Source: Rhizorhapis suberifaciens (lineage in GTDB: Bacteria > Pseudomonadota > Alphaproteobacteria > Sphingomonadales > Sphingomonadaceae). Taken from it: a stretch of DNA of 64,000 bases. Both the position numbers and the translations under genes were made by a program. Below, piece after piece: positions 5,628 through 12,588 of the stretch (the first letter of the stretch is position 1; each line of letters begins with the position of its first letter). The notes beneath the pieces were generated by a model. That model did no database searches. It was given only the letters and a program-made list of their open reading frames with translations, and was not told the origin of the DNA. The stretch covers positions 62,001 through 126,000 of the forward strand of contig NZ_JACHOV010000001.1 of NCBI RefSeq assembly GCF_014200045.1, given 5' to 3'.

Positions 5628-7241
5628 TCACTCAACCAGGCCGATCGCAATCCCGTATTCCCCCTTTTTTTCGTCATATTCCAGCGGTGCGCGAAGCTGG
5701 CGTGAAAGGCCGGTGAGGATGCGACCGAAGCGTTCGTCCAAATAGCGGGTCATCGTGGCCGAAGCGCGCAACGCGTCGGATTGGACACGCAGGATGGCGC
5801 GTTGCGCGTGCTTTCGTTGGCGGACCACTTCGCCCGAACGGACGGAAATCTTGAGCACTCCTTTGGGATCCACCAGCGTCGCCAACTCGACCAGCTCGGT
5901 AATCAGGAAGGCCACCGGAACGGCCACATCCTGACTGACATAAAGATGATCGCTGTGCACTTGAATGGCCATGTTGGGCGCATCATCCGGCATACTGGCG
6001 CGTAAGGAAACGGAAAGCTCCCCCACGAGAGATCGTATGCCGACGCCGCGATGCTCTTCCAACTCGGCATAATGATTGCGGTGGACCACTGAGAGCGCCT
6101 CTACGCGCCGCTGGATCGATGTATAGGCTTCGCCCGCCTCAGGCGTAGGGGCAGAGCGGCTATGAAGGTTGATAAGGCTAGCGATGATCTGAAGGTTGTT
6201 CTTCACCCGATGATGAACTTCGCGCGTAAGCCGGCGCTGGCGTTCGAGGCCCGCCGCCAGCTCTTCTTCGTGGTCGGCTACGGTCTGGGTAATCGCGCGG
6301 AAGGTGTGGCCGAGATCCCGGATCTCCTGTGCGGGCGTTGGCATCCGGCGCAGCGGCTCCAGAACTTGTCCCGGGCGATAATCGGACACCAGGCGGCGGA
6401 GCTGGATCAGCGGATGGATGAGCAGCCGGTTGACCACAAACCAGCCAATCGCGGCTGCTGCAAACCACATGAGCAGGGGCAGGAAGACCGACAGGCTCCG
6501 CGCTATGTCTACCGGTGGCTCCTTAACGCGCAGCAGCAAGGTTACGCCTGTTTCGCCAAGCGGTGCGGTAACCTGATCGAGTTCGTCGGTGCTGCGGGGC
6601 GGCAGGGTTCCGCCTACATCCAATATCCGGTTGCCCTTCTTCAAAAGGATACGGTAACTCTGCAAAGCCGTTTCCGGATTAGTGCGCCGTTCAAGGTGGG
6701 CAAGGCCGTAAACTGCTATAGCCACCATTTCGCCACCGGAACTCATCGTCCGCACGATCATCTGTTTTTGCGCTGGAAGGATGTCCGCCTGTTCCTCGCT
6801 GAAGCGGCTGGACTCAGGAATGGCAAGGCTGCTTTCACGGCGGGAATAGCAAAGTGGACTGCGGCTGCGTCGATCATAGATTACAAAGTCGACCCGTGTC
6901 CCGCCCCGGTTGCGCAATATCTCTCCAGCGCGCGCGCAGATATCGGTGCCGCTACGGTCGGCTACGAGTGAATTGACCACCAGCCGCAGCGCGGAGCGGT
7001 CGGCGGCTATGTCCGATACGAGGTGACGGGCGCTTTCATTCGCGGCAACGTTGAACAGGGCCGCCTTTTCCAGATCAGCCGTCCGGCTCGCTTGGAGCGA
7101 GGCGAACAACGCGATGAGGCCGAGCGGCAGCAGCGCGAGCGTCAGGATGAGGAATGTCTTTACACCGGTGGACAAGCGCGGGTCCGCAACAGGAAGCGTA
7201 GAGGTCCTGCCAGAGTGGAGAGTCGCCACGTCCGGCCCCAA
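5628..7241 (-). CDS. phyP: PhyP-type sensor histidine kinase/phosphatase of the general stress response
   Basis: A 537-residue membrane protein with two transmembrane helices (about residues 29-48 and 250-272) around a periplasmic sensor region, a HAMP-like linker, and a HisKA_2 dimerisation domain with the phospho-acceptor motif EVHHRVKNNLQ. The ATP-binding part is degenerate: where related kinases have ELVTNA the sequence reads ELVELA, so the N-box Asn is missing, and no DNGxG box is seen. PhyP of Sphingomonas is known as a negative regulator of PhyR that acts as a phosphatase, and the same role is inferred here. It is probably cotranscribed with nepR just upstream. The start is uncertain (TTG 7241 or GTG about 7229). 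Confidence 0.85.
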   Translation of the reverse strand: MGPDVATLHSGRTSTLPVADPRLSTGVKTFLILTLALLPLGLIALFASLQASRTADLEKAALFNVAANESARHLVSDIAADRSALRLVVNSLVADRSGTDICARAGEILRNRGGTRVDFVIYDRRSRSPLCYSRRESSLAIPESSRFSEEQADILPAQKQMIVRTMSSGGEMVAIAVYGLAHLERRTNPETALQSYRILLKKGNRILDVGGTLPPRSTDELDQVTAPLGETGVTLLLRVKEPPVDIARSLSVFLPLLMWFAAAAIGWFVVNRLLIHPLIQLRRLVSDYRPGQVLEPLRRMPTPAQEIRDLGHTFRAITQTVADHEEELAAGLERQRRLTREVHHRVKNNLQIIASLINLHSRSAPTPEAGEAYTSIQRRVEALSVVHRNHYAELEEHRGVGIRSLVGELSVSLRASMPDDAPNMAIQVHSDHLYVSQDVAVPVAFLITELVELATLVDPKGVLKISVRSGEVVRQRKHAQRAILRVQSDALRASATMTRYLDERFGRILTGLSRQLRAPLEYDEKKGEYGIAIGLVE

Positions 7242-7242
7242 C

Positions 7243-7446
7243 TCAGGTCAGTTTTTTAAGCAGATCTATCATCTCAGAGGGGATGTCTTCGTCTATTGTC
7301 TGCTGATAGACGGATCGCAAGGCACTGCCGACGTTACTATCCCCCAACCCCGGTTCTTTGGATCGGCCGTCGGACGCGGATCCCTTGCCCGGTGGCGTTC
7401 GATCCGAAGAGGGCGCACCACCATCGTTTTGGCTTTTGCCTTTCAT
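7243..7446 (-). CDS. nepR: NepR anti-sigma factor
   Basis: A small protein (67 residues from ATG 7446) whose C-terminal half carries the NepR signature: NVGSALRSVYQQ, then EDIPSEMIDLLKKL. NepR binds EcfG and blocks it until phosphorylated PhyR takes NepR away. The N-terminal part is low complexity and charged. Its stop lies next to the phyP start, so the two form an operon read away from phyR. The start is not firmly fixed; a longer form beginning at TTG or GTG codons between 7446 and 7500 is possible. An EcfG-like promoter sits about 150 bases upstream. Confidence 0.88.
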   Translation of the reverse strand: MKGKSQNDGGAPSSDRTPPGKGSASDGRSKEPGLGDSNVGSALRSVYQQTIDEDIPSEMIDLLKKLT

Positions 7447-7593
7447 ATCTGCAACCTGTCGCGGCCCTCGGTTCACAGAAGCCAATTCATTTCCCTTTTT
7501 CGGTATTAGCAATGTGCACGTGGTTAATTTCCCCGCTTCATTTTGCCTATAGCGTGGCCTCAGCGCAAATTGAATTTTCCAAACCGCTTGTGA

Positions 7594-7618
7594 AACATTT
7601 CGTTGTTTCATTTGTTCC
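7594..7618 (-). promoter_or_regulatory. Candidate EcfG promoter of nepR-phyP
   Basis: On the minus strand GGAAC (7618-7614) is followed after 16 bases by TGTT (7597-7594). This is the -35 element of the EcfG consensus with the right spacing and one mismatch in the -10 CGTT. It faces nepR, in keeping with the autoregulation usual for this locus. Confidence 0.55.
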
Positions 7619-7754: not shown

Positions 7755-8552
7755 ATGTCGCTAGGCCAGCAGCTTCAACCTCATCTTCCTTTCCTTCGCC
7801 GATATAGCCGCGCCCTTACCGGTAGCCAGGCACATGGGGACGCCTATGTGCGGGCGACGCTTGAGGCGATCGTTGCCGCACCGGAGCAATTTCCGCGCGG
7901 CATTGACCCTCGCCTGGGCCTTTACCGCACGTTTCAGGTGATCTGGGGATCTGCCAATATGAGCGATCGTCCGGATCTACCCCAGGATATCGAAGGTCCG
8001 GAACAAGTGGCGAGAGCCAGGTTAGCCCGGATCACGCCATTGTCCCGCCAGGCCCTGCTGCTCACCGCTATGGAAGGGTTTACGCCGGAAGACGCCGCTT
8101 ATCTCATTGGATTGCCGGAGGCTGAAGTGAATGATCTGGTGCAGGACGCATTGCGTGAAATCGAGTCACAAACCAGGGCCAAGGTCCTGATCATTGAAGA
8201 TGAACCGATTATCGCAATGGACTTGGAAACCATCGTTCGGGATATGGGACACGAAGTGACGGCGGTCGCCGTGACCCGCGACGAAGCCGTTCGGGAAGCG
8301 ATGGCGGAACGGCCGGGCCTGGTGTTGGCCGACATTCAGCTTGCGGACGACAGCAGCGGGATTGACGCGGTCAAGGACATATTGGCGAAATTCTCGGTGC
8401 CGGTGATCTTCATTACCGCCTTTCCGGAACGCCTTTTGACCGGAGAACGGCCGGAACCGACCTTCCTCATTACCAAACCGTTCCAGCGATCCACGGTGAA
8501 AGCGGCGATTTCACAAGCTCTCTTTTTCGATGAGGCTACGGCCCCGGCCTGA
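7755..8552 (+). CDS. phyR: PhyR response regulator (anti-anti-sigma factor)
   Basis: PhyR is the switch of the alphaproteobacterial general stress response: when its receiver domain is phosphorylated, its sigma-like domain binds NepR and frees EcfG. The 265-residue protein has the ECF sigma-like domain first (residues about 1-135, with YSRALTGSQAHGDAYV) and a receiver domain after it (KVLIIEDEP, phospho-acceptor Asp193 in VLADIQL, conserved Lys in ITKPF). ATG 7755 is chosen because the sigma-like domain begins there; upstream in-frame codons would only add leader sequence. It is divergent from nepR. Confidence 0.96.
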   Translation: MSLGQQLQPHLPFLRRYSRALTGSQAHGDAYVRATLEAIVAAPEQFPRGIDPRLGLYRTFQVIWGSANMSDRPDLPQDIEGPEQVARARLARITPLSRQALLLTAMEGFTPEDAAYLIGLPEAEVNDLVQDALREIESQTRAKVLIIEDEPIIAMDLETIVRDMGHEVTAVAVTRDEAVREAMAERPGLVLADIQLADDSSGIDAVKDILAKFSVPVIFITAFPERLLTGERPEPTFLITKPFQRSTVKAAISQALFFDEATAPA

Positions 8553-8572: not shown

Positions 8573-8597
8573 GGAACACTCCGGGCGGTTCCGCGTT
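8573..8597 (+). promoter_or_regulatory. EcfG promoter, perfect consensus
   Basis: GGAAC at 8573-8577 and CGTT at 8594-8597 are separated by exactly 16 bases, a perfect match to the EcfG consensus. It lies 21 bases after the phyR stop and points at the small membrane protein and ecfG, giving positive autoregulation of the sigma factor. Transcription should begin near 8604. Confidence 0.82.
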
Positions 8598-8628
8598 GGT
8601 CGCTGGCTACGTTACGGGAGAGATATCA

Positions 8629-8763
8629 TTGCAGGAACCCGGCCCCCATATCAGCAAGACCGATGCCAGGTCGGGAAGCACGCCGCACATAGTGCGATAT
8701 GTTTTGATGATTTCGCTCTTATTGGCGATAGTAGCGCTGATGGCTGTAGTCCTTATTTTTTAG
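8629..8763 (+). CDS. Small single-pass membrane protein between phyR and ecfG
   Basis: The favoured reading begins at TTG 8629, eight to nine bases after GGGAGAG (8617-8623), and encodes 44 residues: a polar N-terminus and one C-terminal hydrophobic helix (YVLMISLLLAIVALMAVVLIF cut to its last 20 residues). The same frame has an earlier ATG at 8530 that would overlap phyR and lie upstream of the EcfG promoter, so it could not be made from that transcript. I do not recognise a family. Its position suggests a stress-induced membrane peptide expressed together with ecfG; function is unknown. Confidence 0.65.
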   Translation: MQEPGPHISKTDARSGSTPHIVRYVLMISLLLAIVALMAVVLIF

Positions 8764-8871: not shown

Positions 8872-9555
8872 ATGAGACCGCCAGAACAAGGGGGGAGCCC
8901 CATGGCCGATGATCAGTCGCCAGGCGTGCGGACCGACATGCCGGAAATTGCCGACGACCCAAAAGACCGCACGAGTCTTTCGGATACTGAATTCAAAAAG
9001 CAGTTGGCCGACGTGATTCCGCATCTGCGCGCCTTTGGCCGTTCCCTATCCGGCAATCGTGATGTTGCCGACGACCTGGTGCAGGAAACATTGCTCAAGG
9101 CATGGGCAGCCCGGGAGCGTTTTCAGGCCGGGACCAATATGCGCGCCTGGACCTTCATCATTCTGCGCAATTACTATCTATCGCAAATGCGGCGTTCCCG
9201 TTTCCGGGGGGAATGGGATGAATTGGCGGCGGACCGTCTGCTGGCGGCCCCAGCAGGACAGGATAAGCAGGTTGAATTGTCCGACATGCAACGGGCATTG
9301 ATGCAACTGCCTCAATCGCAGCGCGAAGCACTGATCCTGGTGGGAGCGGGCGGCTTTGCATATGAGGAGGCTGCCGAGATCTGCGAGGTTGCCGTTGGGA
9401 CTATCAAAAGTCGCGTTGCAAGAGGCAGGGCAGCGCTGGAGCAGATATTGGAAGACGGCGCGATCCCGTCCCGCCGTACGCAGATCAGCAGCGAGGGCGG
9501 AGCGCTTGAAGAAATAATGGATGACGTCGATCGCATGAGCCGGGGACGGCTATAA
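8872..9555 (+). CDS. ecfG: EcfG extracytoplasmic-function sigma factor
   Basis: Sigma factor of the general stress response. Region 2 is visible as AFGRSLSGNRDVADDLVQETLLKAW and NMRAWTFIILRN in shortened form DLVQETLLKAW and NMRAWTFIILRN; region 4 as LPQSQREALILVGAGGFAYEEAA with core QREALILVG and VGTIKSRVARGR. Length is 227 residues from ATG 8872 (GGGGG at 8860-8865) or 217 from ATG 8902 (GGGGGAG at 8891-8897); either start is possible. Together with PhyR, NepR and PhyP it completes the partner-switching module. It is convergent with a second NepR-like gene. Confidence 0.95.
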   Translation: MRPPEQGGSPMADDQSPGVRTDMPEIADDPKDRTSLSDTEFKKQLADVIPHLRAFGRSLSGNRDVADDLVQETLLKAWAARERFQAGTNMRAWTFIILRNYYLSQMRRSRFRGEWDELAADRLLAAPAGQDKQVELSDMQRALMQLPQSQREALILVGAGGFAYEEAAEICEVAVGTIKSRVARGRAALEQILEDGAIPSRRTQISSEGGALEEIMDDVDRMSRGRL

Positions 9556-9590: not shown

Positions 9591-9782
9591 TCAGAGCGGA
9601 AGCTGGTTCAACTTTCCCAGCAAATCGCCCAATTCGGGCGGCAGGTTATTTTCTGGCTGATGATAGGCGCTACGAAGCGCCCGGCCCACACCCTCATGGG
9701 GGACCGGACGGGAAACTGTCTGGTAACGCGTGTTTCCCTCTTCCTGCTGCCGCACTGATAAACTTTCGTTCCGTCTTGACAT
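9591..9782 (-). CDS. Second NepR-like anti-sigma factor
   Basis: A 63-residue protein with the NepR core: VGRALRSAYHQ followed by NNLPPELGDLLGKLNQLP. It aligns in layout with the nepR product of this window (VGSALRSVYQQ ... IPSEMIDLLKKL) but is clearly a different gene, convergent with ecfG and divergent from glnE. A paralogue suggests a second brake on EcfG or a NepR specific to another ECF factor or PhyR-like protein. A weak EcfG-like promoter (GAAAC-N16-CGTT, 9815-9791, minus) lies so close to the ATG that it would give an almost leaderless message, so the start may be further in. Confidence 0.78.
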   Translation of the reverse strand: MSRRNESLSVRQQEEGNTRYQTVSRPVPHEGVGRALRSAYHQPENNLPPELGDLLGKLNQLPL

Positions 9783-9867
9783 GGCTTACAAACGAAGACG
9801 TCCCAGAAAGGTTTCTGATTATTTTTTTGGGACCAAGCGAGCTACATTTGCGACCGGCGCTTTTGCC

Positions 9868-12588
9868 ATGCGACTCCACGACTCGACGAAATTTCCCATT
9901 ATGTTGAATTTTTCCGATGCTTTAAACCGAGCGCGGCGGCACAGCGGGTTTTTATCGCGGCTTGCCGACCAGCATGAGGCAATCAGCGATCTTTTGAATG
10001 TCGGGAAGCTCGACGAGGCTTTTCGAAAAGCGGAGCAGTCAGGGCAGGACGCGTCCGGTACGGCGCAAATGTTGCGCAGGCGCCGCAATGCACTGGCGTT
10101 GGTAACCGCGATCGCTGATCTGGCGGGCGCGTGGGACCTCGAACGCGTGATGCACGTGCTCTCCGACTTTGCCGACGAGGCGTTGGAAGCAGCAATTCAT
10201 ACCGCCTTTGCCGAGCGGCTGCCTGGCGAAGAGCCGCGCGGCTTTGCTGTTATTGCACTGGGAAAGCATGGCAGTCGGGAACTCAATTACAGTTCTGACA
10301 TAGACCCGATCCTCGTTTACGATCCCAATACCATGCCTCGGCGGGAGCGCGAGGAACCGATCGAGGCGGCCCAGCGGATTGGACGGCGGGTGGTTGAATT
10401 ACTCAGCGCGCGCGATGGTGACGGCTATGTTTTTCGCGTGGACCTTCGGCTGAGGCCGTCTCCTGAAGCCACGCCCATCGTTCTTCCTGTAGACGCCGCA
10501 ATTTCCTATTATGAAACAATGGCTTTGGGATGGGAGCAGGCTGCATTCATCCGGTCTCGCGCTGCGGCGGGAGACAAAACACTGGGAACTTATTTTCTGC
10601 AGGCAATCCGTCCTTTCATCTGGCGGCGCTCACTTGATTTTGGGGCCATAGACCAGATTACCGATGTGTCGCGCCGCATTCGCGATCATTATGCTCAGGG
10701 GCAAGTTTTTGGGCCTGGCTTCGATCTGAAGCGTGGGCGGGGCGGTATCCGAGAAGTGGAATTTTTTGCCCAAGCGCATCAGCTCATCCATGGCGGACGC
10801 CATTCCGAATTGCGCGCGCCGGCAACAGGTGAGGCTTTGGCCGCGTTACGCGGCGGAGGCATTATAGAGTCTGATGTCGCCGCGGATCTCGACGCCGCTT
10901 ATGTGCTGTATCGCACCATCGAGCACCGGCTGCAGATGGTAGAGGACCGGCAGACCCATAGTCTGCCTAAAAGTGCCGAGGAGCTTCAACGCGTGGCGGG
11001 CCTGCATGGCCTGGAACGGCCGGAAGAGCTGTTCGACCTGCTGCGGCCGCACGTCGAACGAACCGGGCGTATATTCGACGGGCTGATCGGGTCGGACGCG
11101 GGGGACGGCTTGTCCATGAATGAGACCCGGCTTACCGAGCAATTGGCAGGGCTTGGTTTTGCCGATCCGAAGACACCGGCGGCCCGCATTATCAGTTGGC
11201 GTAGTGGAACGCTCCGGGCTTTGCGAAGCAAGGCGGCCTTGTCGGCTCTGGAAGCCGTGCTTCCCGACCTCATGGCGGCGATAGCGAAAGCGCCCGATCC
11301 GCCGGGATCGCTCAATCGGTTGGATCATATGATTGCGCGTCTGCCAAGCGCGATAAACTTCTTCAAGCTGTTGGAAGCGCGGCCTGCACTGGCCGCCATG
11401 CTGGGCAACATCCTAAGCCATGCTCCGGTTCTTGCAGAAGCCCTGGCGCGGCGCACGGAATTGCTGGACGGCTTGATCGACGCCACGGCCTTCGACCCAC
11501 AGTCGCCAGTGGACGAACTGGTCAGGTTGTTTTCGGCACTGGAACCCGGCGAGGATTATCAAGTGCTGCTTGATCGGGTGCGGCAGAAGGTGGGAGACCG
11601 TCGTTTTGCACTGGGCGTACAGATCATCGAGGGTGCGCGCGATCCTTTGGAAGTTGCTGCCGACTATTCGAAAATTGCGGAGGCGGCGCTCCTCACCCTC
11701 GCGGAAGCAACCGTCGGCGAGTTCGAGGCTCAGCATGGCAAGGTTCCTGGAAGCGAACTGGCGATATTGGCGCTCGGACGGTTAGGCGGTGGTGCGCTTA
11801 CCCATGCGTCCGATCTCGACTTGATTTATCTTTTCAGCGGCGATTTCCGCGCTGAGTCCGATGGACGCAGGCCGTTGGGCGCGACGCAATATTATAATCG
11901 CCTGGTTCAGCGGATCAGCAATGCCTTGTCTGTGCAAACCGCCTCCGGGCCGCTTTACGAGGTGGATACCCGTCTGCGGCCTTCGGGCGCGCAGGGCCTG
12001 CTGGCCGTCTCCTTCGACAGCTTTGAGCGGTATCAAAAAGAATCCGCCTGGACCTGGGAGCATCTGGCGCTGACACGAGCGCGGCCGGTTTTCGGATCGG
12101 CGTCGGCACGGACAGCCCTTCAGACCATCATAGATGATGTGCTCCATATGAAGCGAGACCTGTCACGTTTCGTGCGGGACGCCATCAAGATGCGAACCGA
12201 TATTGCGCGCCATAAGCCGCCATCCGGCCCCCTTGATGCAAAGCTCGTTGCCGGTGGGCTCATCGATCTGGAATTTCTAGTCCATGTCACTCAGTTTCGT
12301 AACGATAGTGGCTTTTCTCCGTGTCTGAACGAGGCGTTGCAGATGTTGGTAGGTGAAGGACATTTACCGGCGGAGCTGATCAGTGCTCATGACCTGCTCA
12401 CGCGCTTTTTGGTCGTGTCGCGCCTGGCTATATCGGGAGCGCTGGAACCAGACGGGGCCTCGAAGATGCTGGTGGCCCGCGCGTGCGGCTGTAAAAGCTG
12501 GGACGATTGGCTTGAAAGCTATGCTCGTGCCCGGCAATGCGTGCAAAGCCAATGGAAGGCCATAGTTTTGCAGCATGGAGACATTTGA
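9868..12588 (+). CDS. glnE: Bifunctional glutamine synthetase adenylyltransferase/deadenylyltransferase
   Basis: GlnE adenylylates and deadenylylates glutamine synthetase according to nitrogen status, guided by PII proteins. From ATG 9868 it has 906 residues, near the usual 930-980. Both nucleotidyltransferase sites are seen: GSRELNYSSDID in the N-terminal half and GGGALTHASDLDLIYLF in the C-terminal half, each with the GS/GG-x-DxD pattern. ATG 9901 is an alternative. The long open frame upstream to 9730 overlaps nepR-like sequence on the other strand and is unlikely to be translated. Its end overlaps or abuts the peroxiredoxin gene. Confidence 0.95.
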   Translation: MRLHDSTKFPIMLNFSDALNRARRHSGFLSRLADQHEAISDLLNVGKLDEAFRKAEQSGQDASGTAQMLRRRRNALALVTAIADLAGAWDLERVMHVLSDFADEALEAAIHTAFAERLPGEEPRGFAVIALGKHGSRELNYSSDIDPILVYDPNTMPRREREEPIEAAQRIGRRVVELLSARDGDGYVFRVDLRLRPSPEATPIVLPVDAAISYYETMALGWEQAAFIRSRAAAGDKTLGTYFLQAIRPFIWRRSLDFGAIDQITDVSRRIRDHYAQGQVFGPGFDLKRGRGGIREVEFFAQAHQLIHGGRHSELRAPATGEALAALRGGGIIESDVAADLDAAYVLYRTIEHRLQMVEDRQTHSLPKSAEELQRVAGLHGLERPEELFDLLRPHVERTGRIFDGLIGSDAGDGLSMNETRLTEQLAGLGFADPKTPAARIISWRSGTLRALRSKAALSALEAVLPDLMAAIAKAPDPPGSLNRLDHMIARLPSAINFFKLLEARPALAAMLGNILSHAPVLAEALARRTELLDGLIDATAFDPQSPVDELVRLFSALEPGEDYQVLLDRVRQKVGDRRFALGVQIIEGARDPLEVAADYSKIAEAALLTLAEATVGEFEAQHGKVPGSELAILALGRLGGGALTHASDLDLIYLFSGDFRAESDGRRPLGATQYYNRLVQRISNALSVQTASGPLYEVDTRLRPSGAQGLLAVSFDSFERYQKESAWTWEHLALTRARPVFGSASARTALQTIIDDVLHMKRDLSRFVRDAIKMRTDIARHKPPSGPLDAKLVAGGLIDLEFLVHVTQFRNDSGFSPCLNEALQMLVGEGHLPAELISAHDLLTRFLVVSRLAISGALEPDGASKMLVARACGCKSWDDWLESYARARQCVQSQWKAIVLQHGDI

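Follow-up and report, generated by a model that had tools for sequence, protein, structure and literature searches.

A second, shortened NepR next to glnE in sphingomonads, a proposed feedback brake with a promoter that predicts a leaderless mRNA

The general stress response locus of Rhizorhapis suberifaciens raises the question of why two NepR-type brakes should accompany one EcfG sigma factor, which of them binds EcfG or PhyR, and whether they respond to different kinases. Within the window, the 64,000-nucleotide stretch of DNA analyzed here, the locus begins with a gene resembling HisKA_2/HWE histidine kinases (5628..7241, minus strand), recognized by a domain match and situated where phyT lies in the gene order given for Sphingomonas melonis Fr1 in the accessible parts of that report (PMC6599016). 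It is followed by the canonical anti-sigma factor ORF nepR (7243..7611, minus; Pfam NepR, E = 1.3e-6), whose true start is probably downstream of 7611, by phyR (7755..8552, plus; Pfam PhyR domains), which encodes a response regulator with a sigma-like domain and is the presumed target of the second NepR, and by ecfG itself (8872..9555, plus). Between phyR and ecfG, a short ORF with a hydrophobic C-terminus (TTG 8629 to 8763, plus) has a GGAAC-N16-CGTT promoter ahead of it (region 8573-8763) and occupies the same place as the strongly EcfG-dependent gene #1446 of Fr1. The 63-residue ORF with which we are concerned converges with ecfG on the minus strand (9591..9782); its coordinates and ATG start are exactly those of the original prediction, and it contains VGRALRSAYHQPENNLPPELGDLLGKL, the stretch that had been proposed as a NepR core. 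Divergent from it is glnE (9868..12588, plus; Pfam GlnE), encoding glutamate-ammonia ligase adenylyltransferase, with a proposed ATG 86 nt from that of the ORF. Judged from the comparisons below, the ORF is NepR2, a real, conserved, and largely unannotated second NepR of shortened form that is presumably translated.

The assignment of a second NepR-type gene to this PhyR-NepR-EcfG locus is supported by profile homology. A NepR2 profile of 42 relatives aligned to a profile of 30 canonical NepR proteins with an hhalign probability of 98.2 (E = 4.9e-14), and its only matches among solved structures at E up to 1 were the NepR chains 2lfw_B (E = 7.6e-6) and 3t0y_B (E = 0.006). In a single BLASTP comparison, the window nepR2 product shared 15 of 28 residues with canonical NepR from its own locus (E = 8e-07). 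Taken alone, the window ORF matched 2lfw_B weakly (E = 0.14), fell below the curated cut-off of the Pfam NepR model, and matched neither a Pfam model (E up to 1) nor an NCBIfam model; the Pfam NepR model (PF18557) was reached by 8 of the 42 relatives at E up to 1, the best at 0.00059. When the whole genome was searched with Pfam NepR, the one match was the canonical gene, and nepR2 was not picked up. Standard annotation would therefore miss nepR2, as had been expected of so short a gene. Comparison of 45 pairs drawn from 66 nepR2 ORFs, at 60 to 98.5 percent identity, gave pN below pS in every pair, with a median ratio of 0.34. This purifying selection, together with the conservation of place and the fixed promoter before the start codon described below, rules out a chance ORF.

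NepR2 nonetheless differs from canonical NepR within the core that the two share. In all 30 canonical proteins the Tyr-to-Pro linker is exactly eight residues long and a Glu stands at position P-3. Among the 37 NepR2 sequences that could be parsed out of 42, the linker from the Tyr or other aromatic residue to the Pro measured seven residues in 14, six in 15, and other lengths in eight, and the Glu was present in two; the window protein has a seven-residue linker. NepR2 thus lacks the combination of eight-residue linker and Glu that marks the canonical branch, and the loss of both leads us to regard it as a divergent NepR branch and not a plain copy. The window protein retains Leu36, Arg37, and the aromatic Tyr40, and its AlphaFold2 model (mean pLDDT 72.3, pTM 0.34) has predicted helices at residues 30-40 and 49-60 and a loose N-terminus. 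Outside the core the NepR2 alignment is highly variable, with a mean column identity of 31 percent.

We assessed conservation in 81 genomes, comprising the window and the best 80 of 575 EcfG relatives, which were picked by EcfG similarity alone and are in part near-duplicates (L116 and L117, for example). In 60 of these loci nepR2 lies at most 2.6 kb downstream of ecfG, and whole-genome searches of the other 21 located it elsewhere in 19, for a total of 79 of 81. Almost all of the relatives examined carry the gene, and the lack of conservation across sphingomonads that would have spoken against it was sought and not found. In the window nepR2 adjoins ecfG, but glnE is the conserved neighbor: it lies next to nepR2 in all 19 genomes in which nepR2 has moved away from ecfG, a result that rules out ecfG as the conserved partner, and in 78 of 79 overall, the exception (L127) being a contig that ends there. 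Sphingobium and S. melonis AS2.3 are examples in which nepR2 stays with glnE while ecfG sits elsewhere. In the two remaining genomes (L115 and L131), where glnE follows ecfG, the whole-genome search found a canonical NepR and no NepR2, possibly reflecting loss of the gene. A class-wide search gave at least 5 matches in 387 genomes at E 1e-5, with at most 16 candidates per genome scored, so confinement of NepR2 to the Sphingomonadaceae is only a lead; three matches outside the family (L197 to L199) have phyR and ecfG genes nearby, not glnE. The corresponding family search, scored in the same way, gave at least 132 of 397, a figure that mixes NepR with NepR2 and is unusable as a NepR2 count.

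The most regular feature of nepR2 is found upstream of its start codon. In the window, an EcfG-type promoter consists of a -35 element GAAAC (9811..9815, minus) and, 16 nt away, a -10 element CGTT (9791..9794, minus) that ends 8 nt before the ATG. On the nepR2 strand, no further than 2.6 kb from ecfG, we looked for G[N]AAC-N16-NGTT followed after 7 to 10 nt by the start of an ORF with a minimum length of 35 codons, making no use of protein similarity. The pattern occurred 56 times, once in each of 56 of the 81 loci, and every match was NepR2; the opposite strand of the same stretches gave three matches, and 778,684 strand-bases upstream gave 20. Although 7 to 10 nt had been allowed, the distance from the -10 element to the start codon was 8 nt in 30 cases and 9 nt in 26. 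The -35 element was GCAAC in 39 and GAAAC in 17, never GGAAC, and the -10 element was CGTT in 48, GGTT in six, and TGTT in two. The same promoter pattern preceded 18 of the 19 relocated genes, so that in 74 of 79 nepR2 genes (56 at ecfG, 18 elsewhere) the start codon follows G[AC]AAC-N16-NGTT at a distance of 8 or 9 nt. Five lack the strict pattern: the spacer is 17 nt in L113 and L129 and 15 nt in L175, L128 has GGAAC with CGTC, and L072 has GGAAC with CGTC and no assignable nepR2 start; the variants in L113, L128, and L129 were read by eye from the sequence.

Transcription driven by ECF sigma factors usually begins about 5 to 9 nt downstream of the -10 element. The nepR2 message is therefore expected to start at the start codon or 1-2 nt from it, and the spacing conserved in 74 of 79 genes predicts a leaderless mRNA. 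Zymomonas mobilis is itself a sphingomonad. In the accessible parts of the relevant reports, 119 leaderless gene pairs are given for that species, and in Sinorhizobium meliloti 171 leaderless transcripts have been mapped, all with an AUG start (PMC3616915). Because the S. meliloti messages are uniformly AUG-initiated, the GTG starts of six nepR2 genes (L076, L105, L137, L138, L172, and L174) count against the leaderless model. The nepR2-type pattern occurs 18 times in the source genome, compared with 7 times for the reversed pattern, and among these 18 only an MscS-like gene and a MarR-like gene, named from inspection of their sequences, look truly leaderless besides nepR2. This type of promoter architecture is uncommon, yet not exclusive to nepR2. 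In the MscS-like gene (L145 position 1535) G[AC]AAC-N16-CGTT stands 9 nt upstream of the ATG, and in the MarR-like gene (L151 position 1534) 8 nt; both may be further leaderless stress genes.

The promoter of canonical nepR is of the opposite type. We located nepR in 80 of 81 loci and a promoter motif in 70 of these 80, in every case GGAAC-N16 followed by either TGTT or GGTT. From the motif to the earliest possible start codon the distance was 7 to 159 nt (7 nt in one case and at least 14 in the rest). Canonical nepR thus mostly has a long leader and nepR2 no room for one, and the -10 element of nepR2 is mostly CGTT. In the window, the listed ATG of nepR at 7611 falls between the -35 and -10 elements of its own EcfG-type promoter (GGAAC-N16-TGTT, 7594..7618, minus), and its true start should accordingly lie further downstream, at GTG 7512 or ATG 7446. 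The opposite promoter types of the two brakes make the need for two NepRs in one stress circuit directly testable. We also considered whether GCAAC and GAAAC form a weak promoter suited to a late brake. This idea is weakened by the available parts of a study of Sphingopyxis granuli TFA, in which a natural difference between GGAAC and GCAAC was seemingly immaterial in vitro and a consensus -10 element gave more transcript (PMC7083833).

These features are consistent with a model in which NepR2 is an EcfG-driven, leaderless brake that antagonizes PhyR, to which we assign a probability of about 0.8. Under stress, phosphorylated PhyR would take NepR off EcfG, and free EcfG would transcribe nepR2 from its own promoter. 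The transcript would begin at the AUG or 1-2 nt away and be translated as a leaderless mRNA. NepR2 would then occupy the sigma-like domain of PhyR, so that NepR is released, rebinds EcfG, and turns the response down. Homology, conservation, promoter architecture, and the changes in the core come from the present analysis. EcfG dependence, a negative effect, PhyR binding, and the need for the core Leu and Phe are taken from S. melonis Fr1, where, in the sections of the report by Gottschlich et al. (2019) considered here (PMC6599016), gene #1448 beside ecfG (#1447) was named NepR2 and described as a PhyR antagonist and negative feedback regulator. There, #1448 belongs to the EcfG regulon, an EcfG reporter rose on its deletion and fell on its overexpression, NepR2 co-precipitated PhyR, and Leu31 and Phe35 mattered whereas Arg32 and Met46 did not. 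NepR and EcfG formed a complex, whereas no stable complex of NepR2 with EcfG was seen, a result based on protein instability upon co-expression (data not shown in that report). Induction of NepR2 was slightly under the paper's own cut-off, and of 50 strongly EcfG-dependent genes in Table 1 of that paper, 5 have the motif no more than 10 nt from the start, #1448 not being among them. When S. melonis AS2.3 NepR2 is read from its promoter-proximal ATG, L31, R32, and F35 carry the residue numbers published for Fr1 NepR2. As to which NepR binds EcfG or PhyR, an answer is thus published for one strain, in which NepR2 binds PhyR and seemingly not EcfG. All binding and regulation in R. suberifaciens, together with the transcript start and leaderless translation, are what we infer. 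The question of different kinases would fall away in this model, in which NepR2 acts below PhyR, under EcfG control, and has no kinase of its own.

The kind of protein is therefore already described in one strain, and what seems to be unreported in the literature searched is the fixed promoter geometry and the glnE neighbor. The word leaderless is absent from the main text of the Fr1 paper, and the parts examined make no mention of a glnE linkage (PMC6599016). In searches of the main texts of open-access papers, EcfG and leaderless met only in a Bradyrhizobium japonicum paper, where EcfG appears in a reference, and NepR and glnE were not found together; among the matches listed, no work on PhyR or Sphingomonas addressed a leaderless mRNA for nepR2. 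NepR2, a feedback regulator described in a single strain and unseen by standard family models, seems to be nearly fixed in the sphingomonad stress circuit.

Other readings of nepR2 must be weighed against a PhyR antagonist. It could be a mere copy of the anti-sigma factor, redundant with NepR and binding EcfG itself. In favor of this, NepR2 shares the core fold and the conserved ALR..Y/F and LL..L residues with NepR, and two NepR-type proteins, RsiA1 and RsiA2, work together in another alphaproteobacterium, S. meliloti. However, NepR2 diverges in linker length and in the Glu, two features common to all 30 NepRs, and the Fr1 sections cited above report a complex with EcfG for NepR and none for NepR2 (PMC6599016); we consider redundancy of this kind unlikely. 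It is highly improbable that the ORF is what is left of a nepR duplication, unexpressed and retained through neutral linkage to glnE alone. The variability outside the core and the two genomes in which NepR2 went undetected would suit a remnant, but an open frame under purifying selection in 45 of 45 pairs, a fixed distance from promoter to start codon, and a functional counterpart in Fr1, as described in the parts of that report seen (PMC6599016), would not.

The constancy of the glnE neighbor suggests a further possibility, namely that nepR2 and glnE work as one divergent unit: EcfG polymerase at the nepR2 promoter would influence glnE too, and the stress response would thereby be tied to nitrogen assimilation. 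The two genes stay together even where ecfG lies elsewhere, and their starts are usually 40 to 110 nt apart (several N-terminal glnE matches begin far inside glnE), so the nepR2 promoter occupies much of the gap. In 12 of 56 loci the nepR2 -35 element has a sigma-70-like TTGAC for glnE immediately next to it, and 12 columns around the -35 element are invariant in 14 of 14 aligned Sphingobium-type loci. In Sphingobium-type genomes (L159-L169, L171, L173, and L189-L191), the invariant strip around the -35 element, CCAGAAACTTTT, extends well past the five promoter bases, and a second conserved box, GC(A/G)ATA, lies closer to glnE. Across the gap in 56 loci family-wide, however, the EcfG elements and the start codon alone are strongly conserved, which weakens the idea of a shared promoter element for glnE. 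In the window, scanning the gap for sigma-70 sites yielded no glnE promoter, and linkage alone can be neutral. A functional tie between nepR2 and glnE is thus a minority reading, and the divergent unit as formulated here is doubtful. We regard as improbable a broader proposal: throughout the lineage, nepR2 would act as a leaderless feedback brake with its EcfG promoter embedded in the glnE control region. The onset of the stress response would then both trigger its own shut-off and alter glutamine synthetase adenylylation, and the leaderless message would allow the brake to be translated under conditions in which leadered messages are not. The linkage offers a further testable tie of the stress response to nitrogen metabolism.

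In summary, comparison with known systems places the PhyR-antagonist reading of NepR2 in context. With canonical NepR (PF18557; PDB 2lfw chain B, 3t0y chain B), NepR2 has in common a two-helix core with ALR..Y/F and P....LL.(K/R)L, and it differs in a linker of six or seven residues in 29 of 37 parsed sequences, in the missing invariant Glu, and in its promoter type. The nepR2 of S. granuli TFA (SGRAN_1162) is likewise a sphingomonad NepR-type protein under an EcfG promoter; it precedes ecfG1 within a single operon, the two genes overlapping by 4 bp, whereas the window gene is linked to glnE, and with differing gene order and the name alone in common we rejected their identity (PMC7083833). 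The likeness to S. melonis Fr1 NepR2, drawn from the parts of its published description consulted (PMC6599016), is closer to hand: both are small NepR-like proteins encoded beside ecfG that keep the core Leu, and the EcfG-type promoter of the window gene fits the EcfG dependence reported for Fr1. The linker shorter by one residue than in NepR recurs as well, with F35 to M46 in Fr1 NepR2, compared with Y36 to M48 in Fr1 NepR, matching the 11-residue span from Y40 to L51 in the window protein, where L36, Y40, and L51 correspond to L31, F35, and M46 of Fr1.
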